Virus record (IMG/VR): IMGVR_UViG_3300028829_006319
Span: 1-48,601 of that record
DNA length: 48,601 nt
Source: a virus
Strand: one strand, 5' to 3'
A program made the position numbers and the translations under genes. Positions 6,201-46,139 of this stretch are shown in pieces. The notes below the pieces were generated by a model. That model did no database searches. It was not told the DNA's origin and saw only the letters and a list, made by a program, of their open reading frames with translations. Position 1 is the stretch's first letter; the number at the start of each line of letters is the position of its first letter.

Positions 6201-6208
6201 GAGAATCT

Positions 6209-6481: not shown

Positions 6482-6488
6482 TGAAATT

Positions 6489-6504
6489 GCCGGCTTCAGC
6501 CGGC
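6489..6504 (+). terminator. GC hairpin after the 6209 gene
   Basis: GCCGGC-TTCA-GCCGGC is a perfect six-base-pair stem with a four-base loop. There is no following U run (the next bases are TATGAAAGG), so it is an imperfect intrinsic terminator at best. It may mainly separate translation of the two genes. Confidence 0.4.
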
Positions 6505-6517
6505 TATGAAAGGATTT

Positions 6518-21083: not shown

Positions 21084-21808
21084 TACCTTATTCTCCTACG
21101 AAACCCTGATTGTCTTGCCTTGCGTAAAGAGTCGGACCAAACTGCTCCAGAACTTCTCTTTTGAAAACTTTCGAGTGGTAAAAAGATTGTGCGAATCCAT
21201 TCTTCTGGTGGAATCTCAATCATTTGACCACGAACATTTGAAATCAAATATCTTTTGATACAGGGCATCACTTCACGATATTGTGATGCTGCTTGTAGAG
21301 TGCGGTATTGTAAATCCAAATGACTACCATAGGAAGTTTTACGCATCATATTATCCAACAATCGTGTCAAGAGAGTAGCCCTTGCACGAAGAGGTAGATA
21401 ATGTAAGTTGATACCAAGAAAACCGTTATTGTACATAGACAATACAAAAGCAACAGGAAACGCATCATAGTAGGGTAATGTCCTCTTGTATTTTGGATCA
21501 TAGAACCAGCAGTATAAAGAACCTGGTCGTATTTGAGATCCACGAAAAATGTGATGTTCTTTATTTTGGTGATAGAAACTGTTCGGTCTTTCACGAACTC
21601 CCATCACTCGCATTGTGGGATATAATACCTGATTAATTTTCTCACGAAACCATTTCTTTGTATCACCTAAATTTCTTTTTGTCTGACTATCACTTTTAAT
21701 AATATCATTTGTTTGTTGATCAATTGACCTTAGGTCTTTCTGTTTCTCTGGTTGTTCTTCACCTTCAGTTTCTTCGACATCATTCTCATCTTCATTTAAT
21801 AATATCAC
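21083..21808 (-). CDS. T4-like conserved virion/morphogenesis protein, YYDAFP motif
   Basis: A 241-residue protein starting in an ATGA overlap with the GNAT gene. After an acidic, Gln-rich N-terminus (1-50) it has 'GSLYCWFYDPKYKRTLPYYDAFP', then NNGFLGINLHYLPLRARATLL, 'YRTLQAA', and KRYLISNVRGQMIEIPPEEW with an F/L-P segment. This wording is shared by a protein I recall from cyanophages and pelagiphages, where its assignment varies. The Tyr-Tyr-Asp-x-Phe-Pro pattern is the key. The C-terminus is Arg-rich (SLRKARQSGFRRRIR), suited to nucleic-acid contact. It may be a head-completion or DNA-end protein; I cannot decide. Confidence 0.5.
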   Translation of the reverse strand: MILLNEDENDVEETEGEEQPEKQKDLRSIDQQTNDIIKSDSQTKRNLGDTKKWFREKINQVLYPTMRVMGVRERPNSFYHQNKEHHIFRGSQIRPGSLYCWFYDPKYKRTLPYYDAFPVAFVLSMYNNGFLGINLHYLPLRARATLLTRLLDNMMRKTSYGSHLDLQYRTLQAASQYREVMPCIKRYLISNVRGQMIEIPPEEWIRTIFLPLESFQKRSSGAVWSDSLRKARQSGFRRRIR

Positions 21809-22344
21809 GTAAGTCCTAATAAAAATGGTTTACCTTCATTCTCTCCTAAACGTTCAAAACGAAAACCCATCAGCATGTTTGCAATTTCTTCACTCTCTGT
21901 TGAGCAATAAATTGTTTGTGCCCTTGAACGGCGTATACCTAATAAACGATTCACTAGATGATGAGCCAATCCTTTTCCTCTTTCTTCTTGAGCAACTTCG
22001 ATGTTTCCCAATTCAAATATATATTCTTCAGCTAAGTCAGGAATACCAGCCTTCTCAAAGATTTGTTTCTTCACTTCATCTTTTTGTTTTTTCAATGTGA
22101 CCATTGCTGATGTTTTTTTAGTCTGCTTATTTACTGCAACTGAAATTGCGGAAAGGTTTTTAAGTTCTTCAGCAACCTCTTCTTTTGATTTTGTTTTTTT
22201 ATTATTTTTCATCATAAGTTCTACCGCTTGATTCATATTTTCAAGCGGAACAACTTCTCTAGGATTGCCAACGTAGGTGTTATAACGAACCTCTACGTTG
22301 ACAATAGAGTTTGCTAATTCAAGTAATTGTTTCGAAAAATACAT
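21805..22344 (-). CDS. GNAT-family N-acetyltransferase-like protein
   Basis: A 179-residue protein coupled to the giant fibre gene (TGATG overlap). The C-terminal half holds the acetyl-CoA-binding signature: FELGNIEVAQEERGKGLAHH (motif A, Q/R-x-x-G-x-G/A), followed by LVNRLLG, a strand (AQTIYCST) and NMLMGFRFERLGE as in GNAT motif B. The N-terminal part is Lys-rich. GNAT enzymes transfer acetyl groups to amines of proteins or small molecules. Being tied to the fibre, it may modify the fibre, but it could equally act on a host protein; this is inference. Confidence 0.65.
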   Translation of the reverse strand: MYFSKQLLELANSIVNVEVRYNTYVGNPREVVPLENMNQAVELMMKNNKKTKSKEEVAEELKNLSAISVAVNKQTKKTSAMVTLKKQKDEVKKQIFEKAGIPDLAEEYIFELGNIEVAQEERGKGLAHHLVNRLLGIRRSRAQTIYCSTESEEIANMLMGFRFERLGENEGKPFLLGLT

Positions 22345-25300
22345 CAGAAAGTTCCACAGTCAAGGATTGTGTCAAAGAATTCGCTATCGTAAATACTTGA
22401 ATTATTTATTGTTGATGAATTTGCCGTGAAGTTATTCGCAAATGAATCAAACATTTCACTATTTTTGATTGTTGAAACAAAGATTTCATAATCATGCATT
22501 TTACCAGTATTCAATGTCGAATTATTTGCTGTTAGATTATTTGCTGTTGAATCTTGAATATCACTATCAATCAACAAACCATCACGTAATTCAGAAATGG
22601 CAAGTCCATCAAATGTGACATTGCGAATCACACCACCATCAATTGTTACATTGTTTGCTGAGAAATAATCAGCATATGAATTATGTAAATGTGAAGCATA
22701 GATTTGATAATCTTGCATTGTGCCATTTGCTAATGATGTATTTTCAATACTTGAAGATTCAATTATCAAGTTATTCGCATTTGAATTCCAGATTTCAAAT
22801 TCAGCAATTACGGCTGTTGCTCCATTTCCACTCAATGTAATTCCATTGATAAACGCACCATTTAGAATTGCGCTATTCAAAATTACATTGTCAATCACCA
22901 TGTTGTTTGCGTATGTTCCTTCCAATTCAACATGTTCCATCTTTGTGTTGGAAAGAGAAACATTTTCAATAGTGAAGTTATTTGCTGTGGCATGATTCAG
23001 ATAAACATGATTCAAGGTGAAGTTATTTGCCACACCGTTATTTGCTGTTACATTCTCAAGTTCAACTGTTGTTGCTTTCAAGTTAATCACATTCGCACTT
23101 GTGATGTGCGTATTATCCATTGTTGTATCATACATTGTTGTATCATACATGATGAAATCATATGTTGTAGCAACATTGAATGTAGAACTATTTGCTACAA
23201 GAACATCAATTGATGCGTTAGCAGAATGAACAGATTCAATTGTGATTTCATAGAGACTTGTATTACCAATACTTGCGTTTTCGATTGAAGCATTGCTTGC
23301 AGTCAAATGTTGAATGATTGCTGTATTTGAAGATGTATGCTCATTGTTCGCATAGGCTGTATTCGTACGTGTAATTTCAGCATTTTCAATCGTTGGTGAA
23401 TATAGAATACCATTCGTGATTGTTGGTGCTTGTAGAATACCATTTTCAGCAGTCATATCCACAATTGTTGGATCATTCAATGTCGCATTATTACTTGTCA
23501 AGTTATTCGCAACTGCATCCGTGATCACTGCATTCTCAATTGTTGCCAACTTGATGAGCGCATTATTTGCGGTGAAGTTTTCGGCAGTCGCATTTGTCAG
23601 AATCGCATTGTTTGACAGCAAGTTCTCAGCTTCTGAATCATTGACAATTTGAGTTTCATGAATGCGTGAGTTGTAAATGTCAAAGTCATACAAAGCACCA
23701 TGATTCATTGTCACATTATTGGCACTGAAGACATTTGCTGTAGCATTTGCAATCTGACCATCTGTGAAAGTTGAATCCAAAATCGCTAAGTTATTTGCGT
23801 TACCATCTTGAATATCACTATGAAGAATTGAATATCCTTCAATCGCTGAGGCATTATTTGTCAATACACCAGTGATTGTTAGATTATGAATACTGATGTT
23901 TGTCAATTCAGAATCAGCCAATGTTGATTGTGTAATTGTCAGATTGTTTGCAGTGCTTCCCTCAATATGAGACATGGAAACATTCGCATTTGTCATTGTG
24001 ACAACATTAGCGGTAACGTCTGTCAAATTCACAAGAGACATGGTTGAATTCGCAAATGTTGAGTTTGCGACGTGAGAACTTTCAACAACTGAAGTGAACA
24101 ACTGTGAATTCTCAAGATAGTCAATATCAACAACAGTGTTTGCTAAGTTGAATGATTCGAGTGTTCCACCAATCAGATTAACATTGTGTAGATTTGAATT
24201 CCAGATTTCAAACTCAGAAATTACAGCATCACCATTACCAGTCAATGTGATACCATTGATGAGTGCGCCATTTAGAATTGCTCCATTCAGAATCGCACTA
24301 TCAAGAACCATGCCATTTGAGTATGTGTTTGACAATTCAGAATCTGTAATTGTCGCCATTGAAATGGAAACATTATCAATTGAAATATTATCAAAGGTTG
24401 AATTGGCAATTGTGAAGTCTTCAATCCAGCCATGATTCAATGTTGTATTATTTGCGGTCACATTGTTTGCATATGAATCAGTGATTTCAAATTCAGAGAT
24501 TGCTCCGCTTGTCAGTGTTGAATTCAAGAATGTTGAATTGTTGGTGACGAATGCGTTAGCAGTTCCACCTTCCATATCTGCGAGATTCAAGGTCGCATTG
24601 TTTAGAGTCAAATTGAAAGATGTTGAATTGTTAATCTCCGATGCTTCAAAGGTTGAATGTGTCAATGTGACATTGTTTCCACTTGAATCATTCATCACAA
24701 CATCAGTGAATACTGATTCAACAATGGAAAGATTATTCGCACTTGAATCAATTATATTCGAATGAAGCACTGTTGAATTATTTGCGGTCAAATTATTTGC
24801 TGTTGAATCCAGGATCTCAGACGTCTTCATCACGTTGTTTGCGATCTCAGAAGATTCAATCATTGAATCGATCACAACACTGTTCTTCACAGTTGAATTG
24901 TTTGCAGTCAGATTGTTTGCTTGTGAATTCTTGACTTCAACTGAATCCAAAGTTGACAACATGATTGTGGAGTTTTCAACAAACAAATTGTTGGCTGCTG
25001 AATTCTCAATGTCAGATTCATCAATCAAACCATTCAAGAATGTAGAATTGTTTGATGTCAAGTTGTTTGCACTCGAATCAAAGAATGCTCCAATGTTCAA
25101 TGTAGCATTGTTACTAATCAGATTCGAAGCAACACCATTCAGAATAGTCGCAAAAGAAATGGTCGCATTTGCGCTGGTCAAATTCTCAGCAGTTGCGTTT
25201 GTTAGAATCGCATTGTTTGAGATTAAATTTTCTGCTGTTGAATCTTGAACAATTTGTGTCTCATGAATTCTTGAATTATAGATGTCGAAGTCATACAATG

Positions 25301-28300
25301 AACCATGATTCAAGGTCATATTGTTTGCGGTTGAACGCTGGAGATGTCCATCTTGGAATGTACAGAAGTTCAACTCGGCATTGTTCGATGTCAGATTGTT
25401 TGCGTAGCCATCTTTGATAGTGATGCCGATGAGCAAGCCACCATCGTAGAAGTAGTCTTCACCCAACGCACCTGTCTCAGAAGTGCTTCCAGAACCGCCA
25501 GAACCGCTACCACCGGTCAATTCACCACCCGTTGATGTCACAGCATCATTGATGAGGAAACCAGTGATTCGCACATTATTCAACTCAATGTTATTGAAGG
25601 TGGAGCCGTTGATGATTGAGTTGTAGAGAACGATATTGTTTGCGTTCGCATTCTCAAGAGCAACATTCTCAATTGAAACATCTTGTAGGGTTGAATGAGT
25701 GACAGTCAAATTATTTGCTGTGCTGTTTGTGACTGTCAAAGCATTTGCTGTGCTGTTTTCAATATGGCTGGTCACTATCTCAGATGATTGAACAAACATA
25801 TTGTTCGCATTTGTACTCTCTAATTCAAAGAACTCAAGTGTTCCATTCGCCCCTTGAATTTGACCACCGATGATGATTGGAGCATTCAAGATTGGTCTGT
25901 TCATCCATGATTCATCCAAGACAATGTTGTTTGCGTATGAATCATAGATTTCATAGTTGCGAATTGCTCCCTGACCACCATCAAAGACAGCAGACTTAAT
26001 TACCGCACCATCAATGATTACTGAATTCAAATTTGCTTGATTGATTTCACCGAAGTTGAATGTGCAGTTATTTGCGATAAAGTTGTTCGCAAATGAATCA
26101 TGAATTTCTGTTGAATAGATGTTTGTGTTAATGACAACTGAATTATTGACAGTTGAATGTGTTAATTCAGAATCAACAAACATTGAATTTGTCAACAGAG
26201 CATTATTACTTGTCAGAACACCAACATTCACTGTATTGGCGGTAACATTGTTTGCTGTTGTTGTTTCGAGAGTGACTTGATTTCCAATCAACATGTTGAC
26301 ATCAAATGTTCCAGTGACTTCACCATCGGCAATTTCAACATCAGTTAAAGTAGCATCAGTGATTGTGAACACATCAGCATTTCCAGTGATCACTTTGACA
26401 TTGTTGAGTTCTGAATATTGAGATGCCGTCAACAAACGAATGTCAACTTGGTCAAAATCACCAGTTTCAATAATTAAAGTGTTTGCGGTTACATTATTCG
26501 AAGTCAAATCTTCAATGAATGAATTCGCAACAATTTCATTTTCAATTGATGCTTTTGTGATAAATGTATTTGCTATTTCAGAAACACCAGTCAATTCAGT
26601 ATTCACTGCTCTCAAGGTGTTGATATCAGATTCGGTGACAATTTCTTTTATAATTGTCGCATCACTAATTGTTGTTAGGTCAATCTGTGAATCTTGAATG
26701 TAGGCATAAACAGTGTTTGAACGAACATCCACATCCATTGTGTCGATGCTGGCGTAGTTGACTGTAGCATCTTCAGTGACTGTCAAGGATGTGATTGTTG
26801 AATTTGTCAGTGTTGAATTATTTGAATTCAATGTTTCAAGTTCGGAGACACCACTCACAGTCAATGTTGTGAAGAGAACATTGTTTGCTTCAAGTGTTTC
26901 AATTTCAGAATAATTCACAAAGCTATTTGCAACATATTCATCTGTGATATGAGCAAGAACAATATTTGCTGTTTCTGTTTCAGACAGAACAATGTCAGCA
27001 TATTCAATTACAGCAGTGTTAGCAGTTGTATAATCAATGAACAGAGCATTTGCGGTCACATTTTCTAGATGTGATTCAGAGATTGTATAATCTGTTGCTG
27101 TTCCAGAGACTAATGTTCCATCATTCACAGTCAATGTGTTTGCTGTTGAATTTGTGATCAACGTATTGTTTGCTTCACTGGCTTCAATTGTGCTGTTTGA
27201 GAATGAACTCAATACAATGCTCATATTATTCGCACTTGAATTATCCAAACTTGCGGCAGTTGCGGTCAAGTTATGAATAATTGTTCCGAGCAACTTCGCA
27301 TTTTTCAAGGTCGCATCATTCAAGGTCATATTATTTGCGGTTGAATTATCAATCTGGAAGTTGTTCGCATAACCATCGAGTAATGTTGAATTAGTTGCGG
27401 CAAAATCGTTCACTCGCAAATCAACAGCATCTACATTTGATAAGTCACCATTGTTAAATGTGCTGTTATACAAATCTGTTGTGACAATTTCAGAATCAGA
27501 AATGTTTGCTGTTCGTAGAGTTGCATTATTCGATGTCAAGTTGTTCGCAACTGCATTATGAATTTTTGCATTATGTGTTGTTGAATCATGAATTGTTGCA
27601 ACATGTAAAGTCGCATTGTTTGATGTCAAACTATCAGCATAAGATTCATTGATAATTTGCGAATCAATGATTGTTGAATTATGAATTCGTGAATCATAGA
27701 TGTCACTATCATGAATTTTACCAGTGTGAAGTGTAGCATTATTTGAAGTTAGACTGTTTGCTACAGCATTATAGATGGTTGCGTTATGAGTGGTTGATTC
27801 ATAAATTGTTGCGCTGGTCAAAGTTGCGTTGTTTGAAATCAAACTGTTCGCACTTGTTTCTTCAACAATTTGTGTGTCAAAAATTCTTGAATTTCGAATG
27901 TCAAAATCATAGAGAGAACCATGATTCAATTCAACATTGTTTGCTTGAATTAATTTGATTATTGAATTCGCAATGACAAAATTCTCAATTGTTCCTTTTT
28001 CAAGTTCAACATTTTCAGCCATCAAGTTATTCGCATATGAATCAAAGATTTCAGCACGATTCAAATCTGAATCATTCATCTCGGTATGCGTGATGGTGAA
28101 GTTGTTTGCTCTTGAATTATACATGTCGAAATCATCAACAGTACCAACAACTGTATGTGTGTTTGCTGCTGTGATGTTTCTTATACTTGTGTTACCAATA
28201 TAGAAATCTTCAATTGTTCCTTTCACTAACTCTGTATTCTCTGCCATTGTGTTGTTGGCATATGAATCGTAAATTTCAAAGTCAGTGATTGTTCCAACTG

Positions 28301-31300
28301 TTAGATGAGTATTTGAAGCAATTACATTTGTTGTTTGACCATTATGAATTGTGGCATACTCAACAATTGCATCTGTTGTTACAGTTAGATGTTCAATGAT
28401 TGAATTGACAACTTCTTCACTATCAACTGTGAGATTTTCAATATGTGAATTTGCTACTTCTTCTGTGTCGATGTTTGTGAAGGCAATATTTGCCAATTCA
28501 AGACCAACAGTGTTTGCTTCAAACAAATCAGCTTCAATCTTGCGAATAAAGAAGTCATCACCAAACAGTCTTGAAAGTTCAAATGTTCCAGCAGCATCAC
28601 GAACTTTGATTGTTCCTGCTCCGATGTGAGCGGAATTACCACTCAAGTAAAGGTCTCGGAATCTCATTCCAGATGTTCCAAGGTCATACAATTCATTTCC
28701 AGTTGGAACTAAATGTCCTGTGATTGTCGCATCATGAATATGAGAATCTTTCAAATCACTATTCGTCAAACTGACATTTGATGCTGTTGAATCATTCAGT
28801 GCTGAATTGGCAATTGTTGTCAATTCAATTCCGAAGTTGTTCATTTGACCACCATTCAACGTTGTGTTGTTGGCGGTCATATCTTCGGATGTTGTTTCAA
28901 TGAAGTGGAAGTATTTGATTCGTCCAGCACCACCAGTCAATGTCACACCGTTCAAGACAGAACCGGTGATGACACCTCCATTGATTGTCGCAAAGTTTAA
29001 TGTTGTGTTGTTTGTTGTCAAATAATCAATGTCAACTGTTCCCATGATTGCTGTATCAACATTCATATGAACAAGATTCGCATTTGTGTTTTCAATGCGA
29101 CTATCTTGAACTACAACATCTGTTAAGTTACCAGAGTGAACATCAATACTTTGAACATTTGCGTCTTGAATTTCAGCATTTGTGACAAACGTATCTTGTA
29201 GATAAGATGTTTCAGCATCGAGTGTGGTCACATTCACATTGTTTGCGAATGTATCTTCCAGATTTGATGTTTCGGCATTCAATGTGGTCACATTTGCCGT
29301 AGTAATAACTGCTGTGGTGATGTTTGAATCTGTAGATGTGTGAACATCAGAGAACAAATTGTTTGCTCGAATCTCAGGCACATAGAACTTACCACCTGTT
29401 GAACGAGTATAGTCAACCATCTCTCTGTTCAGAACAATTTCACCATCTACATTGACTGAGATTTCAGTCGAATTCAACTTGATCATATCACTAAACTGAA
29501 CGTTTGTTGCGGTCAGATTATTTGCTGTATGATTTTCAACAATTGCGATTCCCGCATTCAATGTGCCGATTTCATGAATGTTTGTATTACCACGATCAAT
29601 ATAAGCAAAGTCAATATGAGCGGTGACAGTGTTACTTGTTGTGATATTTGCTTGCGTGACATTTGCAGTCAACAAGTGAGCAAGAGTAACATCTTCAAAA
29701 CCAACAGTTGAATTTGTAATATTGGCTGTGGTAATTGTTGCATTTGGAACAGTTACTGAATTCGAAAGATTCAAATCTTTTGCGAACACATTTCGGAAAG
29801 CTTCTGTGAGTGTTCCGAGGTCTACTGTATCATGTGTCAGCGGAACAAATGTTCCATCAAATCCAACATTTGTGATTTCAACATTCGTGATTGTAGCATC
29901 ATGTAGAGTCGCATTATTTGATGTTATATTGTTTGCAGTTCCACCATGAATTGTCACATTATCCAGTGTAGCATTCACTGAATGAATGTTCTCGGCATCC
30001 GCATTGAAAATTGTTGCGTAGTTCAGAGTCGCATTGTTTGAAACTAAGTTATTGGCACTTGTTTCTTCAACAATTTGAGTATCATAAATTCGTGAATTAT
30101 AGATATCAGCATTTCGAATTTCAACATTTGCAATCGCACCCGAATGGACTGTGATTGTGTTCGCAACAACATTACCCGAGAATGTGCTACCAACAACGGC
30201 TGTTTGTGTGACAATCTGAACGTCAGCATTATCTTTTGTATGATAATCAGCAAGAGCAACATTGAACTTGATTTTACCTTCAGGTGTTACGCTAAAGATT
30301 GCGTTATCAATTTGAACACTATTGGCGACATACAAATCTTTGAATCTTTGACTTGCTGAACCGAGGTCAAATCCACCAGACACACCAGGAACAAATTGAC
30401 CACGAATTATTGAATCATTAAATGTTGAGTTGTAGGTCGTTGCATCATATAACAAGGCGTTGTTTGATGTCAAACTATTTGCTGTAGCATTTTCAATATG
30501 AGCTTCATATAATGTAGCATTGTTTGATGTTAGATAACTCGCATGAGCATCATTGATTGTTGCTCGATTGATTACAGCATTGTTTGATGTCAATTGCTCT
30601 GCGGTTGATTCTTCAATAATTTGAGAATTATAAATTGTTGAATTATGAATCTCAGCATTATCAATATAAACATTCTTGATGATACCTTCATCAATTACAG
30701 CATTTGCTGTTGAAATTGAAAGTGAAGTGATTTCATCTATCTCAGCCACATTTGCATCAATGAAATGAGCAATTGTGTTAATTGACAACAGATTATTTGT
30801 TTCAACTTTATCAGCACTTGTATCATCTGTTTTCAAATAATAATCTGCCAATCTTTCACTAAACTTGATATGGCCATTTGCGTCAATGGACATCGTTGCA
30901 GTTTTTGCATCACCCAGTTTAATTATACTTGTAACTTCAGCAGTTTGAGCAGACAATGTTGTAGTACTGAGGTCATCAATTGTTCCTGAATTCGCATCAA
31001 TTACATCAATGAAAGTATTCGATGCGTAAAGATTATTTGTTGTGACTTTCTCACCGGAAGTATCATCTGTTTTCTTAAAGTAATCTTCAAGGTCGGCACT
31101 GAACTTCAGTTTACCACCTACGGCTGTCATTGTGATGTTATCGACAGTGATTGAATTCGCAACTTCTAAGTCTGTTGAACTCAGGTCAACTGTTCCAATT
31201 GTGACTGAAGTTAGGTCATCAATCTCTGCGGTGTTCGCATCAATAAAGTTGATGAATGAATTCGAAGCATGAAGGTTATTTGTGGTAACCTTTTCTCCAC

Positions 31301-34300: not shown

Positions 34301-37300
34301 CAAACAACTCACCATGATTCAAAGTCACATTGTTTGCACTCAACACACGAACAGTCAGACGGTCACCTTCGACATCATTGAAGGTTGTATTACCGATGTG
34401 ATAATCTTCAATTTCACCAGTTGTTAGATCAACACGATTTGCTGTTATATCATTGATACTTGTATTACCAATTTTGCTTTCTTCAATCGAAACATCTGTG
34501 ATGGATGTTCCTTCCATTGTTCCATTTGAAATATCAGAAGTGAGCAAGTCAATATTTTCAATTGTTCCTGTTGTTACAGAAACTCTTTCTGCCGTCACAT
34601 CATATAATTTTGGATCATGAAGTGTTGCATTATTTGATGTCAGATTGTTTGCAACAGCATTGTTAATTGTTGCATTTTCAGTTGTTGAATTCTGAATCGT
34701 GGCATTTGTCAGTGTCGCATTGTTTGAAACCAGATTGTTTGCGGATGATTCTTCAATAATTTGAGTGTCATAGATTCTTGAATTTCGTATATCAAAATCA
34801 TTCAAGCTACCATGATTGAGTGTGACATTGTTTGCGTTCAGAACACGAACAGTCAACCGGTCACCTTCAAGGTCATTGAAGGTTGTGTTGCCAATCTCAC
34901 TGTTCTCAATTGCAATGTTGTTTGCATCACTATCTTCAAAGTCTGAATTTCGAAGCATTGATTGTGTGATGGTGAACTGATCAAATGTTCCTGTTGTCAG
35001 GAAAACATTTGTTGCTGTGAAGTGATCACCAGTTGAATTTGTGATATGAGAATCATCAATATCAGCATCAAACACTTCAGCATGATAGGATGTCAGATTG
35101 TTTGCTGTTGCGTAGTTGAACTGAGCAAGGTTTAATGTAGCGTTATTCGATGTCAGATTGTTCGCCACAGCGTTTTCAATGGTCGCATCATATGAAGTCA
35201 AGCGATGAACAATCGTATCGTTAATTTCAGCAAAGTTCAGAGTTGCGTTGTTGGACAACAAGTTGTTTGCGGAAGACTGCTCTACAATTTGAGTGTCATA
35301 AACTCTTGAGTTATAGATGTCAAAGTCATATATCTTACCATGATTCAACTCAACATTGTTTGCCTTGAAGTCATCTGTAATTTCAATGTGAGTACCTTTG
35401 AAGTAATCAATCGTTCCTGTTGTCAGATAGACATTTGTAGCGGTCACATTATTTGCTTCCGCAATCTCTACATGAATATCTTCTAAGGATCCTTTTTCGG
35501 CTTCGAAGTTTGTGACAGTGAAGGTATTTGCTGTGAAGCTTTCGAGATGACCAGTTGTGAGTTGTAAATTCGTAGCGACAACACCATTGGCTCTCATATC
35601 CTCAACATCAATGTCAGTCAAATCACCATGTGCTGTGACAAAGTTAGTTGTGTTGACATTGTTTGCAATCACATCTTCAATGCTATAATCTTCAATTGTA
35701 CCATACTGGAGCTTGAAGTTTGTCAGAGTCAGATTGTTTGCTGTGAAGGCTTCAAGATGACCAGTTGTGAACTCACTATTTGTCAGTGTGACATTGTTTG
35801 CTCGAATGTCTTCAACATCAATGTCTTCTAAGTATCCTTTTTCAGCTTCAAAATTTGTGACAGTGAAATCATTTGCGGTGAAAGTTTCAAGATGTCCAAA
35901 TGTTGAATGTGTGTTTGTTGATACAAAGTTATTTGCGGTTGATAATTCAAGATGATTGTTACTTAAATTACCATGTTGATACATGCTGTAATTGACTACA
36001 ACATTATTTGCTACTGAATCATCAAAGGTTGACTTAGTTGTGACAGCACCTGTGATTGAAATACTTTCCAACTCAACATCTTTCAAGACAGCACCACTGA
36101 TTTGTGCCTTATTGATTGTCATATTATTTGATGTCAAATTGTTCGCATAGGAATCATAAATGTTTGAATCTGAAATATTCACAACATCAATTGTTCCAGT
36201 GTCCATTGTGATGTTGGTTGCGGTCAGATTATTCGCACGAATGGTTTCAACATCAACATTAGTAATCTCACCATTTGTCAGGTCAAAGTTCGTGACAGTG
36301 AATTCATTAGCAGTGTATTCTTCTAAGTGTCCAAACGTTGAGTGAACGTTTGTAGATACAACATTATTGGCTCTTACATTCTCAACATCGAAGTCTGTGA
36401 TTGTGCCGGTTGTTAGGTAAACATTTGTTGCCGTCAGGTCATTGGCAGTATATTCTTCTAAATGACCAAACGTTGAATGAACGTTTGTGCTGATAACATT
36501 ATTGGCTCTTACATTCTCAACATCAAAGTCTGTAATTGTTCCTGTTGTGATGAAGACATTTGTTGCTGTGAAGTTATTTGCTGTATATGTTTCTAAGTGT
36601 CCAAAGGTTGAATGAACATTTGTTGAGACAATACCATTTGCTCTTACATTCTCAACATCAAAGTCTGTGATTGTACCGGTTGTCAGATAGACATTTGTTG
36701 CTGTGAAATTATTTGCAGTGTTCTTTTCAAAGTGTGAATTTTCGATTAGGAAATCATCAACAGTTCCCTTTGTCAGGAAGAAGTTTGTTCCTGTAAAGTT
36801 ATTTGCTGTGAAGTTTTCCGCATTTGCTGTATGAATATCGGCAGATAAAAGATCAGCATAATGTGATGCCAAGCGATAAGCAGTCGCATCATTGATTGTT
36901 GCATTATTTGACAACAAATTATTCGCAGAGGATTCTTCAACGATTTGTGATTCAATGATTTTTGAATTGCGAATCTCTGAGAACTGAATCAACGAATTAT
37001 AAATTTCACCAGAATATAGTGTTGCGTTATTCGAAATTAGATTGTTGGATACCGCATAGTCAATTGTTGCATAATTACTATGCAAGCGATGAGCAATTGC
37101 ATCATTAATGATCGCATTATTTGAAACTAAGTTATTCGCACTTGTCTCATCTACGATTTGAGTATCATAAACTCTTGAGTTATAGATATCAAAGTTTGTA
37201 ATTGTTCCAGTATCCAGCGTTACATTTGTTGCTGTGAAGTCATTTGCTGTGAAGATTTCAAGATGACCAAATGTTGAATGAGTATTCGTAGAGACAACAT

Positions 37301-40300
37301 TATTAGCTCTCATATTCTCAACATCAATGTCCTCAAGGTCACCTTGACTGAACTCAAAGTTTGTGGTTGTGATGTTGTTTTGCGTATAGTCTTCTAAATG
37401 ACCAAACGTTGAGTGAACATTTGTGGAGACAACGTTGTTTGCTCGAATATCCTCAACATCAATGTCCTCAAGGTCACCTTGACTGAACTCAAAGTTTGTG
37501 GTTGTGATGTTGTTTGCGGTGAACTCTTCCAAGTGGCCGAAGGTCGAGTGCGTGTTAGTTGAAACAACATTGTTCGCCCGCATGTCTTCAACATCAATAT
37601 CAGCCAAATAACCTTGTTGAAAATCAAAGTTTGTGGTTGTGATGTTGTTTTGTGTGTAATCTTCCAAGTGTCCAAATGTTGAATGAACATTGGTTGTCAC
37701 AACATTATTGGCACGAATATCTTCAACGTCTACATCTTGTAGATAACCTTGTCTTGAGTCAAAGTTTGTTGTGGTGATATTGTTCGCAACAAACTCTTCA
37801 AGTGTTCCAGTTGTGAAATAGGTGTTTGTTGCCGTGACATTGTTTGCATGAATATCTTCCAGGTCAAAGTCTGTGATTGTGCCAGATGTCAGGAAGACAT
37901 TTGTTGCTGTTAAGAACTCACCTTCGACATCTTCAAACTGAACATTTGATAAGTTACCATGTTGGAAAGTACTGTAGTTGACAACAACATTGTTTGCTGT
38001 TGAATCATCAAAGGTTGACTTTGTGGTAGCAGAACCTGTAACAGTGATTCCTTCCAGAGTTGCGTGATTCAAAATCGCATAGTTCAATGTTGAGTTGTCA
38101 ATTGTCAAATTGTTTGCAGTAGCATTCTCAATGTGACCTTTTTCATACTCAAAGTTTGTTACACTGATATCATTTGCGGTGAAGTCTTCAAGATGACCAA
38201 ACGTTGAATGAGTGTTAGTTGATACAACGTTATTGGCTCTCATATCCTCAACGTCAATGTCTTGTAGATAACCTTGTCTTGAATTGAAGTTTGTAGTTGT
38301 TACATCATTTGCGGTGAAGGTTTCTAAATGACCAAAGGTTGAGTGAGTGTTCGATGTGACCACATTGTTCGCCCTCATATCCTCGACATCAATGTCCTCT
38401 AAGTCTCCATGTTTATAGTCGAAATTCGTTGTGGTCACATTATTTGACCGCATGATCTCTACATCAATATTCTCTAAGTAACCATCATAAGATTTGAAGT
38501 TTGTTGTAGTAACATCATTTGCGGTGAATGTTTCGAGATGACCAAATGTTGAGTGTGTGTTAGTTGACACAACATTATTGGCTCTCATGTCCTCGACATC
38601 AATATCTTCCAAGTCACCATGTTTCGTGTTGAAGTTAGTTGTGGTGACATTATTTGCAATCACATCTTCAATTTCATAATCTTCAATGTATCCTTTTTCT
38701 AAACGGAAGTTTGTGATTGTGATATTGTTTGCCGTATAATTTTCCAAATGTCCAAATGTTGAATGAACATTTGTTGAAACTACGTTATTGGCACGAATAT
38801 CTTCGACGTCAATATCTTGTAGATAACCTTGTCTTGAGTCAAAGTTCGTAGTTGTAATATTATTTTGAGTATAGGTTTCAAGATGACCAAATGTAGAATG
38901 AACATTTGTAGATACAACATTATTGGCTCTTACATCCTCAACATCAAAGTCTTCTAAAGTTCCATGAGTGAAGTAGGTGTTTGTTGCTGTGATGTTATTT
39001 GAATCATAAACATTGTTCATTCTTCCGTCAACAAAACGGAAATCAGTGATTGTTACATCATCAATTTGAGCATTCTTGACATTTACTAATTCAATTTCAC
39101 CTTTGTAAAAGTCAAAGTCATAGACATACATATTTTCGACATTTGCATCATAGACTCGAATGTCTTCCAAATAACCATGTCTTGACTCAAAGTGGGTTGT
39201 GTTGACATTGTTGGCAGTGTAGTCTTCGAGATGACCAAATGTTGAATGAACATTAGTTGTGACAACGTTGTTTGCACGAATATCTTCGACATCAATATCT
39301 TGTAGATAACCTTGTCTTGAGTCAAAGTTAGTGGTCGTGATATTATTGGCAGTGAATGTCTCTAAGTGTCCAAAGGTTGAATGTGTGTTGGTGCTGACAA
39401 CATTATTTGCCCGCATATCTTCCACATCCACATCTTGAATGTAGCCATGTCTTGAGTCAAAGTTGGTTTCAACAACATTATTTGACCTCATGTTCTCAAC
39501 ATCAATATCAGCCAAATAACCTTGTTGAAAATCAAAGTTTGTTGTGGTGATATCATTTGCGGTATATGTCTCAAGATGTCCAAATGTTGAATGAACATTC
39601 GTTGAAACAGTGTTGTTTGACCGCATGTCCTCCACATCAAAGTCTGTGATTGTTCCTGTTGTCAGGAAGACATTTGTTCCAGTGAAGTTGTTTGCGGTGT
39701 TGATTTCAAAATGTGAATTTGAAATCACAAAGTTGTTTGCTGTTCCACCATCTAAGAAGAAGTTTGTTCCTTCAATGATATCTGCGACAATATTTGATGC
39801 GGTACTATGATGAAAGTGAGAGTTGTCAATGTCGAGTTTCTCCATCTCCCCAGAAGAAACAATCGCATTGTTTGCTTCGAAATCACCAACTAAAGTTGCC
39901 AGCTGGTAATCACCCATGGTGACACCAGGTTCAGTACCATACTTTCGGAATAGATGAAACTTTTTATCTGCTGCCTTACGGAAGATACCAGCATAAGCAC
40001 CCACACCTTCATCTTTATATCGTGCAGAAAAACCAAGGTCAACGGCATCTGCATCATTATTACTTCCAACAACAATGATGTTATCTTCCACAACCATTGT
40101 TTGAACATCAATCTGAACAGTGTTACCTTGGACAAAAAGATTGCGTCCGATTGTCAAATCTTTTTCAATCAGAACATTATCTGCTACTTGAATCTCATTA
40201 TTAACTGTGACTTTTGCGTTGATATCAACAGCATCATTGACGGTCAACTTGCCGTGAATGAATGAATGTGTTCCTGCGCTGACAGAGAATTGACTTCCGT

Positions 40301-42899
40301 TGATGTCTGTATCGTTGTTGAAGGTAGCGACACCATCAAAGGTAGATGAAGTTCCTGTGCTGACAACAAATGTGGGTCCTGTGAACTCTACATCATTCGT
40401 GGCCGTCACATCCTCATTCAGAGTGACCAGACCATCAATGGTTGTGTCTGTCGAAGCACTGACAGCAAAGAGAGCGCCGTTAATCGTTGTGTTGTTATTG
40501 AGAGTAGCGGTCCCATCAAAGACCGATGGCGTTGCTGTACTGATGCGGAAGAGACTGCCATTCAAATGCGTTGTGTCATTGATGACAACGGGCTTGTTGA
40601 AGGTCGTGTTGTTCTGGAATGTTGCGGTTCCTTCAAATTCAGATGCTGTAGTATTTCTTACACGGAAATGGTTTCCATCAATTTCAGTATTCGCACCGTT
40701 GATATAAACACTGTCATTCATTGTGACAGTATCATTCATTGTTACGGTGTTATCTGTGACTACTGTTCCTTTGAAAGTAGTTGCTGTATCTTGACTGATT
40801 GTAAATGTAGCGCCAGTGAAATCAACTGTATCTGTAAGAGTGACAGGACCATTTGCTATGATTTTTGAACCAGCAGCCCAAGTAGTTGTGTCCGATGAAA
40901 TAAAAAGGTCATTTGTAAAATAAACATGACCATTGAAATCTGTTTGTGCATTATTAAATGTAACAGGCTCTGTGAATTCAGTTACTGTATTGATTGTGAT
41001 TGACCCACCATTGAAAACAGTTGTTGTTTGGTCAAGTGTAAAGTCAATATCATAGTAGTTTACATCACCATGAACTTCTGTTGTGGTGTTTGAAGAAAAA
41101 TAAACTTCATTTCCGTCAAATCTTGAATTTGTTGTTGAAACTTCAAACTTTTCTGAACTGAAAGATGTATCTGTTTCTAATTTCAATGGTGCGGAGAATG
41201 TCATTTCACCAGTATCTTTATCAACACCGATTGATTGACCACCAATGTAAAGCGTCAAACCACTCAGATAAAGATCTTTCCATGGTCGTTGAAGTGAACC
41301 TAAACTGTAAACAGCATTTCCTGTCGGAACAAGGTCACTGTTAATTCCAGCAACAGTAGGAACATCAACACCCTCTGCTACAAATCCAAGATGACTGTTA
41401 TTTGCAAAATGAACTATGTTATGATGCTCAACTTCAGAATAATTTTTGACAACACCATTGACTGTATAAACTTCATCACTATCAATTACATGATATTTTG
41501 TACCAACTGTTACTTGATTACCAGTAAATTGTAGATGTTCTGTATTGACTGTACCAAAGTGAACTTCAGCATCTAAATCTTCAATATCAAGAGTTGTGTT
41601 TAGACTTTCAAGTTCAAAGTCATCAAGTTTTGCGTAAGTGTTAAAGCTTCTTACATCAACTTGATTCAAAATTGCTGTGGTGTTAAATGATCGAAGTTCA
41701 AGGTCATCAATTTCAACTTCAACATCACCAAGGTCAGCTACAACTTTATTCGAAGTGATATTTGTGTTTGCGTTATTGATACGAATATCACCTAACCATT
41801 CAAGAACCGTGTCTGCTGAACCAATGACCATAGGTCCAGTGAACAATGTTTGAGCATCAATCTGAACATTTCCATACTTCGTTAGATGGAAAAGATAACC
41901 ATCAATATAACTGAAGAGTGTTCCGTCTGTTGTGAAAAGTGTGGTTGTGTCCCAGGTGTTTCCAGCAGCAACTGTTGTGATGTGCAAATATTCTTGAAAG
42001 TGTAGATTCTCATGATCTACAAAGAATTGATTTGCAACTTCAAGTGTTTGGCCTACAGATAGATTTGTGGTGATACGAGTGTTCGCATCAACAAATAGAC
42101 TATTCGCATCCGTATCAAAGAAGAATCTTGGTGATGTTTGAAACTCCTCAAGATCATTACCGAGAAGGACTCGATGCCGATCGAAGAAGTCTCCGCCAGT
42201 TCCACCTCGATGAACGTCCAACACACCTGACGTATCTTGGTTTAAATTTAATAAAGTTCCTTCACCAAGTTTAATTTCTTGTAGACCCAAACGAATTGAG
42301 TCATTTTCTAACATTAGATTGGTGACAGACTTTTGTCGAAGTGAAGAACTACCATCAGGGAAGAATTCAACTACACCACTGATTTCTCGATTTTCAAATT
42401 TGTTTGTGGTGTCAACAATAAGGATTTGTCCAGGTGCTAAGGATTCCTCATCAAAGTTTAGAAGGAATCTTTTTGTTCTTTCGTCAACATAATCCTTGAT
42501 TGCTTTCGAAGAAACCAATTTATTATCCGCAACATTAGGCAGATTATTTGCGGTGATGATTTCTTCAACATCTTTTGTGACAAGGATTCTACCATTGATG
42601 CTGATTTGACCAAAATCAAGAAAGTCAATATGATTATTGGCATCTGCCACAATGACATTGTTGGGATAAACAGTTCCAGCATGAACCGTTCCATCGGCAT
42701 TCAGAACATCTGAAAATAGTTTGAGGAATGCATTTCCACCAATGGTGATTGCTGGTTCTCCTGTGTTCGCATTACCGATGAAGAGTCGGTCTGATGCGTA
42801 AGAGTAGGCTAATTCTGCTCTTTGTAAATCAGTATCAAGGGGAACAGCAGTTTGAGTGGAACTTTTGATGAGTATTTTAGAAACAATATTATCTGCCAT
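22344..42899 (-). CDS. Giant tail/baseplate fibre, 6851 residues, pentad-repeat beta-helix
   Basis: One uninterrupted 20.5-kb frame. Residues 1-45 (ILIKSSTQTAVPLDTDLQRA and on) resemble the phage tropism-determinant/fibre N-terminus that binds the baseplate. A HRGGTGGD fibre motif lies at about 230. Residues 920-990 hold the 'VQ.MVVEDNIIVVGSNN...FSARYKDEG' module of T4-like fibres. From about 1000 the chain is built of pentads, A[TDN][LI]xN-like, e.g. ANNLT-SNNAT-LNYAT, as in pentapeptide-repeat beta-helices. Three higher-order cassettes recur: STFGHLE (about 16 copies), 'KTDDTSGEKV' (about eight, residues 3400-4030) and 'DLGS...F..LYLSG' collars (six). A Gly/Ser linker is at about 5795-5810. 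The C-terminus is still in pentads, with no tip or chaperone domain. The protein is late and host-range related; the adhesin tip is unknown. Confidence 0.85.
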   Translation of the reverse strand: MADNIVSKILIKSSTQTAVPLDTDLQRAELAYSYASDRLFIGNANTGEPAITIGGNAFLKLFSDVLNADGTVHAGTVYPNNVIVADANNHIDFLDFGQISINGRILVTKDVEEIITANNLPNVADNKLVSSKAIKDYVDERTKRFLLNFDEESLAPGQILIVDTTNKFENREISGVVEFFPDGSSSLRQKSVTNLMLENDSIRLGLQEIKLGEGTLLNLNQDTSGVLDVHRGGTGGDFFDRHRVLLGNDLEEFQTSPRFFFDTDANSLFVDANTRITTNLSVGQTLEVANQFFVDHENLHFQEYLHITTVAAGNTWDTTTLFTTDGTLFSYIDGYLFHLTKYGNVQIDAQTLFTGPMVIGSADTVLEWLGDIRINNANTNITSNKVVADLGDVEVEIDDLELRSFNTTAILNQVDVRSFNTYAKLDDFELESLNTTLDIEDLDAEVHFGTVNTEHLQFTGNQVTVGTKYHVIDSDEVYTVNGVVKNYSEVEHHNIVHFANNSHLGFVAEGVDVPTVAGINSDLVPTGNAVYSLGSLQRPWKDLYLSGLTLYIGGQSIGVDKDTGEMTFSAPLKLETDTSFSSEKFEVSTTNSRFDGNEVYFSSNTTTEVHGDVNYYDIDFTLDQTTTVFNGGSITINTVTEFTEPVTFNNAQTDFNGHVYFTNDLFISSDTTTWAAGSKIIANGPVTLTDTVDFTGATFTISQDTATTFKGTVVTDNTVTMNDTVTMNDSVYINGANTEIDGNHFRVRNTTASEFEGTATFQNNTTFNKPVVINDTTHLNGSLFRISTATPSVFDGTATLNNNTTINGALFAVSASTDTTIDGLVTLNEDVTATNDVEFTGPTFVVSTGTSSTFDGVATFNNDTDINGSQFSVSAGTHSFIHGKLTVNDAVDINAKVTVNNEIQVADNVLIEKDLTIGRNLFVQGNTVQIDVQTMVVEDNIIVVGSNNDADAVDLGFSARYKDEGVGAYAGIFRKAADKKFHLFRKYGTEPGVTMGDYQLATLVGDFEANNAIVSSGEMEKLDIDNSHFHHSTASNIVADIIEGTNFFLDGGTANNFVISNSHFEINTANNFTGTNVFLTTGTITDFDVEDMRSNNTVSTNVHSTFGHLETYTANDITTTNFDFQQGYLADIDVENMRSNNVVETNFDSRHGYIQDVDVEDMRANNVVSTNTHSTFGHLETFTANNITTTNFDSRQGYLQDIDVEDIRANNVVTTNVHSTFGHLEDYTANNVNTTHFESRHGYLEDIRVYDANVENMYVYDFDFYKGEIELVNVKNAQIDDVTITDFRFVDGRMNNVYDSNNITATNTYFTHGTLEDFDVEDVRANNVVSTNVHSTFGHLETYTQNNITTTNFDSRQGYLQDIDVEDIRANNVVSTNVHSTFGHLENYTANNITITNFRLEKGYIEDYEIEDVIANNVTTTNFNTKHGDLEDIDVEDMRANNVVSTNTHSTFGHLETFTANDVTTTNFKSYDGYLENIDVEIMRSNNVTTTNFDYKHGDLEDIDVEDMRANNVVTSNTHSTFGHLETFTANDVTTTNFNSRQGYLQDIDVEDMRANNVVSTNTHSTFGHLEDFTANDISVTNFEYEKGHIENATANNLTIDNSTLNYAILNHATLEGITVTGSATTKSTFDDSTANNVVVNYSTFQHGNLSNVQFEDVEGEFLTATNVFLTSGTITDFDLEDIHANNVTATNTYFTTGTLEEFVANNITTTNFDSRQGYLQDVDVEDIRANNVVTTNVHSTFGHLEDYTQNNITTTNFDFQQGYLADIDVEDMRANNVVSTNTHSTFGHLEEFTANNITTTNFEFSQGDLEDIDVEDIRANNVVSTNVHSTFGHLEDYTQNNITTTNFEFSQGDLEDIDVENMRANNVVSTNTHSTFGHLEIFTANDFTATNVTLDTGTITNFDIYNSRVYDTQIVDETSANNLVSNNAIINDAIAHRLHSNYATIDYAVSNNLISNNATLYSGEIYNSLIQFSEIRNSKIIESQIVEESSANNLLSNNATINDATAYRLASHYADLLSADIHTANAENFTANNFTGTNFFLTKGTVDDFLIENSHFEKNTANNFTATNVYLTTGTITDFDVENVRANGIVSTNVHSTFGHLETYTANNFTATNVFITTGTITDFDVENVRANNVISTNVHSTFGHLEEYTANDLTATNVYLTTGTITDFDVENVRANNVVSTNVHSTFGHLEEYTANEFTVTNFDLTNGEITNVDVETIRANNLTATNITMDTGTIDVVNISDSNIYDSYANNLTSNNMTINKAQISGAVLKDVELESISITGAVTTKSTFDDSVANNVVVNYSMYQHGNLSNNHLELSTANNFVSTNTHSTFGHLETFTANDFTVTNFEAEKGYLEDIDVEDIRANNVTLTNSEFTTGHLEAFTANNLTLTNFKLQYGTIEDYSIEDVIANNVNTTNFVTAHGDLTDIDVEDMRANGVVATNLQLTTGHLESFTANTFTVTNFEAEKGSLEDIHVEIAEANNVTATNVYLTTGTIDYFKGTHIEITDDFKANNVELNHGKIYDFDIYNSRVYDTQIVEQSSANNLLSNNATLNFAEINDTIVHRLTSYDATIENAVANNLTSNNATLNLAQFNYATANNLTSYHAEVFDADIDDSHITNSTGDHFTATNVFLTTGTFDQFTITQSMLRNSDFEDSDANNIAIENSEIGNTTFNDLEGDRLTVRVLNANNVTLNHGSLNDFDIRNSRIYDTQIIEESSANNLVSNNATLTNATIQNSTTENATINNAVANNLTSNNATLHDPKLYDVTAERVSVTTGTIENIDLLTSDISNGTMEGTSITDVSIEESKIGNTSINDITANRVDLTTGEIEDYHIGNTTFNDVEGDRLTVRVLSANNVTLNHGELFDFDIRNSRVYDTQIVEESSANNLVSNNATLNYATIYNSTTEKATINEAIANNLTSNNATLYRADIYNSDLETGTIRDFEISLSSGTDVDLDTGTIENYTIKTSTIQNSNTLNVDLHTGEVNNYHIVASTMDDTDITNSSFETGTIDQTTITNSTIDSTTVKNNFVPFDTNVDLGANTQRFNDAYIANELNLGLAVMRINTDGHIDFVNQAGENVRLADYAMKEDAAASIVTETAYVGSSFSGTVTANTITVHEGSIANVTITNADIYSSRVYDTQIVEETRAEQLYSNNATITNARADNLFSNNATIINATAENLKSSNTNIHFAVIHNSEIRNSTIIESTIVDETVANNLVSNNATLNFATINDATAVNMTSNTAILNHATINDALANNLTSNNATLFDASLIGQTTVIGDLIPNEADTYDLGSLLKPFRHMYLSGNTLFVGGEAITLTGEGFKFDADLAEYSKTSEQAEHLETNTADVNILTANEAEIWELTTSNTSVEDLTVGKTITLDGFGMSVVDGELKFTERLADYYLKTDDTTGEQVTTNNLDAANAIIDILEANTGSVETLTATDVTVSNHLSSPRLQATQSLQVGSAYVTIDGDSKIHFSTELSDYYTKSELDTQINTLDVDADTGTIDNLTTTDLTSANSITVNGITMTSEGGELKFSERLADYYLKTDDTTGEQVVTKNLHAANAFIDVIDANTGVIDDLTSTNLTTTDLTASSTITIDGITLQKDGDGLKFSANLVDYFKKTDDTSGEKVSTNNLHASNAFVNFIDANVAEIDDLTTIDLEAHNSITVNGIELTKVGDKLKFSADLEDYYKKTDDTSGEKVTTQNLHAANAFIDVIDANTGVIDDLSSTTMSSVTVEADTSITVDGITMTAEDGKLKFNADLVDYFKKTDDTSGEKVTTQNLHAANSFIDVIDANTATIDDLTVIDGTITELESTNGSFTTVETTDLTATDLVATNSITVNGIEMTSEGGALKFNADLVDYFKKTDDTSGEKVTTNNLHASNSFINFIDANTAEIDDLTSVTIGTVDLSSTDLEVANSITVDNITMTAVGGKLKFSADLEDYFKKTDDTSGEKVTTNNLYASNTFIDVIDANSGTIDDLSTTTLSAQTAEVTSIIKLGDAKTATMSIDANGHIKFSERLADYYLKTDDTSADKVETNNLLSINTIAHFIDANVAEIDEITSLSISTANAVIDEGIIKNVYIDNAEIHNSTIYNSQIIEESTAEQLTSNNAVINRATINDAHASYLTSNNATLYEAHIENATANSLTSNNALLYDATTYNSTFNDSIIRGQFVPGVSGGFDLGSASQRFKDLYVANSVQIDNAIFSVTPEGKIKFNVALADYHTKDNADVQIVTQTAVVGSTFSGNVVANTITVHSGAIANVEIRNADIYNSRIYDTQIVEETSANNLVSNNATLNYATIFNADAENIHSVNATLDNVTIHGGTANNITSNNATLHDATITNVEITNVGFDGTFVPLTHDTVDLGTLTEAFRNVFAKDLNLSNSVTVPNATITTANITNSTVGFEDVTLAHLLTANVTQANITTSNTVTAHIDFAYIDRGNTNIHEIGTLNAGIAIVENHTANNLTATNVQFSDMIKLNSTEISVNVDGEIVLNREMVDYTRSTGGKFYVPEIRANNLFSDVHTSTDSNITTAVITTANVTTLNAETSNLEDTFANNVNVTTLDAETSYLQDTFVTNAEIQDANVQSIDVHSGNLTDVVVQDSRIENTNANLVHMNVDTAIMGTVDIDYLTTNNTTLNFATINGGVITGSVLNGVTLTGGAGRIKYFHFIETTSEDMTANNTTLNGGQMNNFGIELTTIANSALNDSTASNVSLTNSDLKDSHIHDATITGHLVPTGNELYDLGTSGMRFRDLYLSGNSAHIGAGTIKVRDAAGTFELSRLFGDDFFIRKIEADLFEANTVGLELANIAFTNIDTEEVANSHIENLTVDSEEVVNSIIEHLTVTTDAIVEYATIHNGQTTNVIASNTHLTVGTITDFEIYDSYANNTMAENTELVKGTIEDFYIGNTSIRNITAANTHTVVGTVDDFDMYNSRANNFTITHTEMNDSDLNRAEIFDSYANNLMAENVELEKGTIENFVIANSIIKLIQANNVELNHGSLYDFDIRNSRIFDTQIVEETSANSLISNNATLTSATIYESTTHNATIYNAVANSLTSNNATLHTGKIHDSDIYDSRIHNSTIIDSQIINESYADSLTSNNATLHVATIHDSTTHNAKIHNAVANNLTSNNATLRTANISDSEIVTTDLYNSTFNNGDLSNVDAVDLRVNDFAATNSTLLDGYANNFQIDNSTANNMTLNDATLKNAKLLGTIIHNLTATAASLDNSSANNMSIVLSSFSNSTIEASEANNTLITNSTANTLTVNDGTLVSGTATDYTISESHLENVTANALFIDYTTANTAVIEYADIVLSETETANIVLAHITDEYVANSFVNYSEIETLEANNVLFTTLTVSGVSELETLNSNNSTLTNSTITSLTVTEDATVNYASIDTMDVDVRSNTVYAYIQDSQIDLTTISDATIIKEIVTESDINTLRAVNTELTGVSEIANTFITKASIENEIVANSFIEDLTSNNVTANTLIIETGDFDQVDIRLLTASQYSELNNVKVITGNADVFTITDATLTDVEIADGEVTGTFDVNMLIGNQVTLETTTANNVTANTVNVGVLTSNNALLTNSMFVDSELTHSTVNNSVVINTNIYSTEIHDSFANNFIANNCTFNFGEINQANLNSVIIDGAVIKSAVFDGGQGAIRNYEIYDSYANNIVLDESWMNRPILNAPIIIGGQIQGANGTLEFFELESTNANNMFVQSSEIVTSHIENSTANALTVTNSTANNLTVTHSTLQDVSIENVALENANANNIVLYNSIINGSTFNNIELNNVRITGFLINDAVTSTGGELTGGSGSGGSGSTSETGALGEDYFYDGGLLIGITIKDGYANNLTSNNAELNFCTFQDGHLQRSTANNMTLNHGSLYDFDIYNSRIHETQIVQDSTAENLISNNAILTNATAENLTSANATISFATILNGVASNLISNNATLNIGAFFDSSANNLTSNNSTFLNGLIDESDIENSAANNLFVENSTIMLSTLDSVEVKNSQANNLTANNSTVKNSVVIDSMIESSEIANNVMKTSEILDSTANNLTANNSTVLHSNIIDSSANNLSIVESVFTDVVMNDSSGNNVTLTHSTFEASEINNSTSFNLTLNNATLNLADMEGGTANAFVTNNSTFLNSTLTSGAISEFEITDSYANNVTANNTTLNHGWIEDFTIANSTFDNISIDNVSISMATITDSELSNTYSNGMVLDSAILNGAILNGALINGITLTGNGDAVISEFEIWNSNLHNVNLIGGTLESFNLANTVVDIDYLENSQLFTSVVESSHVANSTFANSTMSLVNLTDVTANVVTMTNANVSMSHIEGSTANNLTITQSTLADSELTNISIHNLTITGVLTNNASAIEGYSILHSDIQDGNANNLAILDSTFTDGQIANATANVFSANNVTMNHGALYDFDIYNSRIHETQIVNDSEAENLLSNNAILTNATAENFTANNALIKLATIENAVITDAVANNLTSNNATLNDPTIVDMTAENGILQAPTITNGILYSPTIENAEITRTNTAYANNEHTSSNTAIIQHLTASNASIENASIGNTSLYEITIESVHSANASIDVLVANSSTFNVATTYDFIMYDTTMYDTTMDNTHITSANVINLKATTVELENVTANNGVANNFTLNHVYLNHATANNFTIENVSLSNTKMEHVELEGTYANNMVIDNVILNSAILNGAFINGITLSGNGATAVIAEFEIWNSNANNLIIESSSIENTSLANGTMQDYQIYASHLHNSYADYFSANNVTIDGGVIRNVTFDGLAISELRDGLLIDSDIQDSTANNLTANNSTLNTGKMHDYEIFVSTIKNSEMFDSFANNFTANSSTINNSSIYDSEFFDTILDCGTF
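25471..25530 (-). other. Gly/Ser linker within the giant fibre
   Basis: The encoded stretch GGELTGGSGSGGSGSTSETG is unlike anything else in the fibre. It separates a block of pentads from a restarting block that begins YFYDGGLLIGITIKDGYANN. It could act as a hinge or mark a fusion point between two ancestral fibre parts. Confidence 0.7.
30750..32950 (-). repeat. Array of 'LxDYxxKTDDTSGEKV' modules in the fibre gene
   Basis: About eight copies, plus one degenerate (DYYTKSELDTQ), of a module holding LKFSADLEDYFKKTDDTSGE, then a NNLHAANAFIDVIDANT segment and 'IDDL'. Spacing is uneven, roughly 60 to 100 residues. Copies are very close in protein sequence but differ in synonymous codons. Confidence 0.75.
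35880..39610 (-). repeat. Array of 45-residue 'STFGHLE' modules in the fibre gene
   Basis: About 16 copies of TNVHSTFGHLETYTANN, most followed by a TTTNFDSRQGYLQDIDVED-type part, each 45 residues (nine pentads) when complete. Some copies replace the second half with a 'TATNVYLTTGTITDFDVEN' variant. All spacings checked are multiples of five, as expected of a pentad beta-helix. Confidence 0.8.
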
Positions 42900-42945
42900 A
42901 GTTTCGTTATGTTAGGAATTTTAAAAGAAATATTGTAGTTCTTTT

Positions 42946-42953
42946 TATTTAGA
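42946..42953 (-). promoter_or_regulatory. Possible late promoter of the giant fibre gene (TCTAAATA)
   Basis: One mismatch from TATAAATA on the minus strand, 46 bases before the ATG at 42899. The 85-base gap 42900-42984 holds nothing else. Confidence 0.35.
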
Positions 42954-42984
42954 TTTTTCTAACAAAAACAATACGAAATATGAC

Positions 42985-46132: not shown

Positions 46133-46139
46133 GATGTGT

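Follow-up and report, generated by a model that had tools for sequence, protein, structure and literature searches.

A giant intact gene for a probable pentad-repeat fibre in an uncultured T4-like aquatic phage

What kind of protein a single open frame of more than 20 kb encodes, and how long a rod that protein could form, are the questions raised by the window analysed here, that is, the whole stretch of 48,601 nucleotides (positions 1 to 48,601 of IMG/VR record IMGVR_UViG_3300028829_006319). Its source is an uncultured T4-like aquatic phage with a giant, intact surface fibre gene, whose product (hereafter designated the fibre) is compared below with its relatives, with pentapeptide-repeat proteins (PRPs) and with known phage structural proteins.

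The giant frame and its relatives at the same locus

The frame occupies positions 22344-42899 on the minus strand as 6,851 codons, beginning with ATG and containing a single, terminal stop; in the other five frames this span has 321–824 stops. An open frame of 6851 codons, predicted earlier with no strand given, is therefore confirmed. The intact 20.6-kb gene encodes a 743-kDa protein that is acidic (914 D/E vs 255 K/R; pI, about 4.2) and contains three Cys in total. To our knowledge, the fibre would rank among the largest phage proteins known. It is longer, by 37%, than the 5,002-residue tape measure of P23-45, which has been termed giant (PMC10770324) and which, likewise a structural protein of a phage, may set a dimension by its length; the two are, however, unrelated, the fibre being made of short beta-type repeats. 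The parts of the fibre and its neighbouring genes are listed in Table 1.

Table 1. Parts of the fibre and neighbouring genes in the window
Feature	Coordinates	Strand	Evidence
N-terminal domain (N-domain), residues 1-333, likely virion anchor	41901..42899	-	46-52% identity in all relatives at the locus; first ~110 residues in a family with 'tail fiber' members (Melnitz, Mosig)
Residues 334-1005, non-pentad beta-rich repeats (about 6.5-residue rhythm), one DLG module and one 'VEDNIIVV..GFSARY..YAGIFR' module	39885..41900	-	Periodicity; HMM background state
Pentad block A, residues 1006-3026, 45-residue (20+25) super-repeats	33822..39884	-	HMM; nine-pentad comb z = 16.7
Residues 3027-4783, pentad stretches alternating with 'DLG..RF.DLY' and 'LADYYLKTDDTSGEKV' modules	28551..33821	-	HMM segmentation; motif positions
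Pentad block B, residues 4784-5787	25539..28550	-	HMM segmentation
Gly/Ser-rich linker between blocks B and C, residues 5788-5825	25425..25538	-	Sequence; HMM background state
Pentad block C, residues 5826-6845, mostly canonical small.x.LARGE order	22365..25424	-	HMM; PF13599 51.9 bits over 5201-6851; about 65% identity to L009
C-terminal peptide LDCGTF (last six residues)	22347..22364	-	C-terminal motif shared with relatives' ORFs
x179, 179 residues, candidate fibre accessory protein; one-base overlap with fibre stop	21805..22344	-	Position kept in relatives; 72% identity to L009
gp2 DNA end protector (synteny marker)	21083..21808	-	phrog_429, 4e-49
Terminase small subunit, terS (synteny marker)	42985..43422	-	phrog_445, 1e-17
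gp15 tail sheath stabiliser and gp14 neck protein (T4-like markers)	45176..46985	-	phrog_227, 3.7e-53; phrog_460, 1.2e-52, and PF11649

Giant homologues also occur at the same locus (terS-FIBRE-x179-gp2) in contigs of two other metagenomes, with 6,646 residues in G012 and 6,706 in G011. The two are 98.7% identical to each other, and both are collinear with the window fibre at about 35% identity, which rises to as much as 60% with G012 in residues 3027-4783. The two in-frame indels between G011 and G012 are exactly 25 and 35 residues long, so that length changes arising in nature preserve the pentad register. The dN/dS values of the window fibre were 0.10 against L003 (709 codons), 0.27 against L009 (1,196 codons) and 0.35 against the G012 homologue (5,726 codons), and that between G011 and G012 was 0.20 (6,646 codons). 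Moreover, per-site synonymous changes exceeded non-synonymous ones in every 500-codon block compared with G012, a figure flattered by the protein-guided alignment. These values indicate that the frame is translated and under purifying selection; the giant frame is real, intact and unusually large.

The N-terminal 709 residues of the fibre are 97% identical to L003, and comparison with L009 gave identities of 65% for the last ~1,200 residues, 72% for x179 and 97% for gp2; as L003 and L009 come from different metagenomes, these N- and C-terminal identities need not describe one genome. A conserved N-terminus combined with a diverged C-terminus and neighbour is the usual pattern for host-range modules.

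Short fibres with the same ends as the giants were also found at this locus, comprising 1,341 residues in L013, in which the 'VEDNIIVV..GFSARY..YAGIFR' module recurs, and 1,395 residues in L030, L032 and L033. Since these smaller relatives share both ends, the gene seems to lengthen or shorten by expansion or contraction of its middle. Relatives of 1.3, 1.4, 6.6, 6.7 and 6.9 thousand residues with the same ends at one locus thus make up a natural series on the evolution of fibre length and its benefit. Core-gene and N-domain trees, both unrooted, each split the two giant lineages from the short ones, a topology consistent with a single change in length, the root not being secure.

Pentad register, fold and rod length

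The pentad register was called by a five-phase hidden Markov model (HMM) trained on the fibre, with composition-matched shuffles as the control. It placed 5,181 residues (1,043 pentads) in register, compared with 703–831 residues in the shuffles, so that about 76% of the chain follows the five-residue rhythm, as anticipated by the original prediction of a mostly pentad protein; the non-pentad parts are residues 1-1005 and the DLG and LADYYLK modules interleaved with pentads in 3027-4783. Stretch 1006-3026 (2,021 residues) contains just seven phase slips, and 78 of the 87 spacings between 'ANN' anchors are divisible by five. The inward positions are occupied by S, A, V, G, L or F (i-2) and by I, A, L, V or S (i), and position i+2 is N or D in 50–64% of pentads. 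Super-repeats are odd, of 9 and 5 pentads, and no comb of four pentads was detected with pentad shuffling as the control (z negative outside the C-terminal blocks and at most 2.2 within them); a four-pentad coil rhythm apparent in the raw autocorrelation of the C-terminal blocks was lost under the same control. Residues 1006-2550 and 3335-4027 favour large-then-small pentads, the inverse of the canonical order.

The pentapeptide-repeat beta-helix originally predicted for these pentads is plausible from sequence and model comparisons, which support it in part. PF13599 (Pentapeptide_4) matched above its cut-off (51.9 vs 38 bits) in residues 5201-6851 only, PF00805 gave 16.9 bits, under its cut-off of 20.2, and the top PDB sequence matches were PRP structures, namely NP275-NP276 and designed beta1 solenoids (E, 3e-4 to 1e-3). 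Other Pfam matches (Stonustoxin_helical, AlphaC_N and others) were sub-threshold or compositional and were dismissed as noise. Two single-chain AlphaFold models were of low confidence (mean pLDDT, 41 and 52), with local values of 74–79 near residues 3150-3190, where strands recur at five-residue intervals; Foldseek returned beta1 solenoids with probabilities up to 0.93 but E > 0.2, and nothing usable for the second model. A PRP is defined by at least eight contiguous consensus pentads (PMC8145042), and the longest run in the fibre was 1 by the Vetting consensus (all 5 positions), 2 by the Zhang consensus (all 5) and 5 by the latter at 4/5 positions. Thus, the fibre resembles PRPs (PF00805/PF13599; MfpA, Qnr, NP275-NP276) in its strict five-residue register with two inward positions, but differs from them in falling short of the strict consensus, in favouring N/D at i+2, in its many inverted large/small pentads, in its about 1,040 repeats and in its place within a phage structural gene block. 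The unmatched consensus, the undetected four-pentad period, the inverted order and the poor AlphaFold models all speak against the predicted fold.

The fold of the pentads is a structural question with two clearly different length predictions. With four pentads per 0.48-nm coil of a single chain, 1,043 pentads would give about 125 nm, whereas an intertwined trimer with one pentad per chain per 0.48 nm would reach about 500 nm. Scaling from T4 gp34, a parallel homotrimer with 1,289 residues in a 70-nm half-fibre (PMC3004832), would give about 370 nm for the whole fibre. The rod of ~150 nm expected previously, which depends on the predicted beta-helix fold, is thus one possibility, towards the lower limit of about 125–500 nm.

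A family with fixed ends

An alignment search with the N-domain, which matches phrog_15769 (4.3e-7), found 55 loci at 26–99% identity. The smallest proteins at these loci have about 126 residues and the largest are the giants; of those that reach a stop, nearly all end in [IL][DN][GC]G[TSNA][FY]. The C-terminal motif [DNE][GC]G[TSNAV][FY] occurred in 36 of 625 distinct ORFs of the fetched loci and in none of the reversed control; the motif-ended ORFs whose true start was read open with an N-terminus of the N-domain type, and the remaining few are fibre frames that are truncated or start internally. The fibre's own end, LDCGTF, fits the pattern [IL][DN][GC]G[TS][FY]. Judged from sequence, the N-domain and this C-terminal peptide together define a newly recognised family of aquatic phage proteins of 126 to 6,851 residues. 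Because both recur across that whole range, the constant feature of the family is its pair of ends, the intervening length varying some fifty-fold. Loci L061, L063, L066, L071, L072, L073 and L081 contain tandem pairs of proteins, of 126–134 and 281–426 residues, with the same N-domain type and a C-terminal GG[TSNA][FY].

By their C-terminal peptide, Pelagibacter phage Mosig, Limnohabitans phage DC31 and Methylophilales phage Melnitz (with one extra Ser) have members of the family. The Melnitz (QZI94912.1; 648 aa, encoded immediately before the neck genes) and Mosig (QOI69032.1; 569 aa) proteins of these Kyanoviridae are labelled 'tail fiber', the labels being assigned by similarity. They belong to the same N-domain family, linked via L042 at 44–50% identity over its first 110 residues, and have near-identical C-terminal peptides (IDGGTYS and IDGGSF); however, they are ten times shorter, lack pentads and lie elsewhere than the terS-gp2 locus. 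The hexapeptide marks a family of uncharacterised fibre proteins found in uncultured aquatic phages as well as in cultured ones, where its role can be tested directly. Synteny, selection, the two independent giant homologues and an N-domain common to proteins annotated 'tail fiber' all support the earlier reading of the frame as a single giant fibre-type gene.

Proposed working, alternative readings and lineage

We consider it fairly likely from these comparisons that the gene encodes a giant virion fibre of an uncultured T4-like myophage, with the N-domain as anchor, a beta-structured pentad rod and a distal host-contacting end. The conserved N-domain would dock the fibre on the virion, as its homology to annotated fibre proteins suggests, and the about 1,040 pentads with the short modules would form the long rod, for which we lean towards stacked pentapeptide-type coils, probably with three chains joined in a trimer. 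The distal, host-contacting end would be the final ~1,200 residues, the part that changes most quickly among close relatives, and the C-terminal hexapeptide may be an assembly or capping signal retained at any rod length. Gene length would shift by gain or loss of whole pentads, as in the indels observed, and versions of 1.3 to 6.9 thousand residues occupy the same locus.

From its position and divergence, x179 might be guessed to be a fibre accessory protein; a GNAT enzyme, to which it bears a weak resemblance below the cut-off, was rejected, and its profile has no PDB relative. The parallel divergence of the distal end and x179 fits a fibre tip with its own dedicated helper, by analogy with T4 gp37 and its chaperone gp38 (PMC3004832). 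The T4 long tail fibre (gp34/gp36/gp37 with gp38) shares with the fibre its presumed role, its occurrence in a T4-like phage and a fast-evolving C-terminus followed by a small co-varying gene, but consists of several proteins instead of one 6,851-residue chain. No sequence homology to T4 gp34 or gp37 was detectable, no tail-fibre PHROG matched the pieces scanned, and no tblastn match was obtained in 50,697 phage records. No copy of the T4-type late promoter TATAAATA lies upstream of the fibre gene, nor does the window as a whole show enrichment of this motif.

The pentads of this same fibre might, rather than forming separate four-sided coils, build an intertwined trimeric beta-helix with one pentad per chain per layer and a rod of about 370–500 nm, which we regard as possible but rather unlikely. 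The homotrimer T4 gp34 scales to the lower of these lengths (70 nm per 1,289 residues; PMC3004832). The PF13599 and PDB matches argue otherwise, being to single-chain quadrilateral helices, while the odd super-repeats, the undetected four-pentad comb, the large-then-small pentads of 1006-2550 and 3335-4027 and the low confidence of the monomer AlphaFold models agree with the trimer. The interleaved DLG and LADYYLK modules resemble sequences of trimeric phage fibres; on the other side, we know of no intertwined trimer with five-residue repeats. More doubtful still is a new intertwined trimeric beta-helix forming a single-gene fibre of 400–500 nm, tuned in length by pentads between fixed ends; if true, it would be several times the length of the T4 tail fibre.

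Alternatively, the infected cell could produce the protein as a giant adhesin, secreted or displayed at the surface, or the protein could decorate the virion outside the tail. The gene adjoins terS and gp2 outside any identified tail fibre cluster, no tail-attachment signature was found, and head-decoration and structural proteins are among the PHROG matches to the central parts of relatives. We nevertheless think this improbable, given that the gene lies within a block of virion genes (gp14, gp15, terS, gp2, tail-tube-like, hub) and that N-domain family members in Melnitz stand just before the neck genes, among annotated tail fibres. A further alternative is that the frame arose by misassembly, or is an expanded repeat in decay that yields no full-length product; the window is one metagenomic contig and repeats favour misassembly, but this reading is largely refuted and has hardly any probability left: because collinear homologues of 6,646 and 6,706 residues occupy the same locus in two other metagenomes, the giant frame is not an assembly accident, and dN/dS is well below 1. 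None of the three giants contains an internal stop. A giant virion fibre is therefore the reading that we prefer.

The gene order gp14-gp15-x150-x236-x175-terS-FIBRE-x179-gp2-tail-tube-like-hub is conserved in relatives, and alignments of the pentad region to 2.9 million viral contigs gave matches from this clade only. The tblastn searches of the 50,697 phage records used N-terminal, middle and C-terminal pieces of the fibre, and low-complexity masking may be partly responsible for their null result. A search of genome contigs with the N-domain matched no bacterial genome, and psbA, sought as a sign of a cyanobacterial host, was absent from six records. The neck and end-protector proteins are only about 30–38% identical to their counterparts in cultured T4-like phages.

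Several features of the neighbouring genes were also observed. In this clade (window 42900-43422, L013 and L030), the fibre gene, and not the large terminase gene, comes next after the small terminase gene. A 150-residue protein (44711-45163, minus strand) in the virion gene block, kept in relatives, matches MotA/TolQ/ExbB at 29.6 bits (cut-off, 22.9). The tail-tube-like protein (18414-21083, minus strand; phrog_45 over about 220 residues) carries a C-terminal extension of ~650 residues; that of L009 has a different, longer extension (1,044 aa in total), and those of L013 and L014 have none (277 and 254 aa). After the hub gene, a 1,022-residue protein (14428-17496, minus strand) contains a T4-lysozyme-like stretch at residues 769-855 (PDB phmmer, 1.2e-5), and positions 4908-5465 (minus strand) encode a phage-borne response-regulator receiver domain (PF00072, 55.7 bits).
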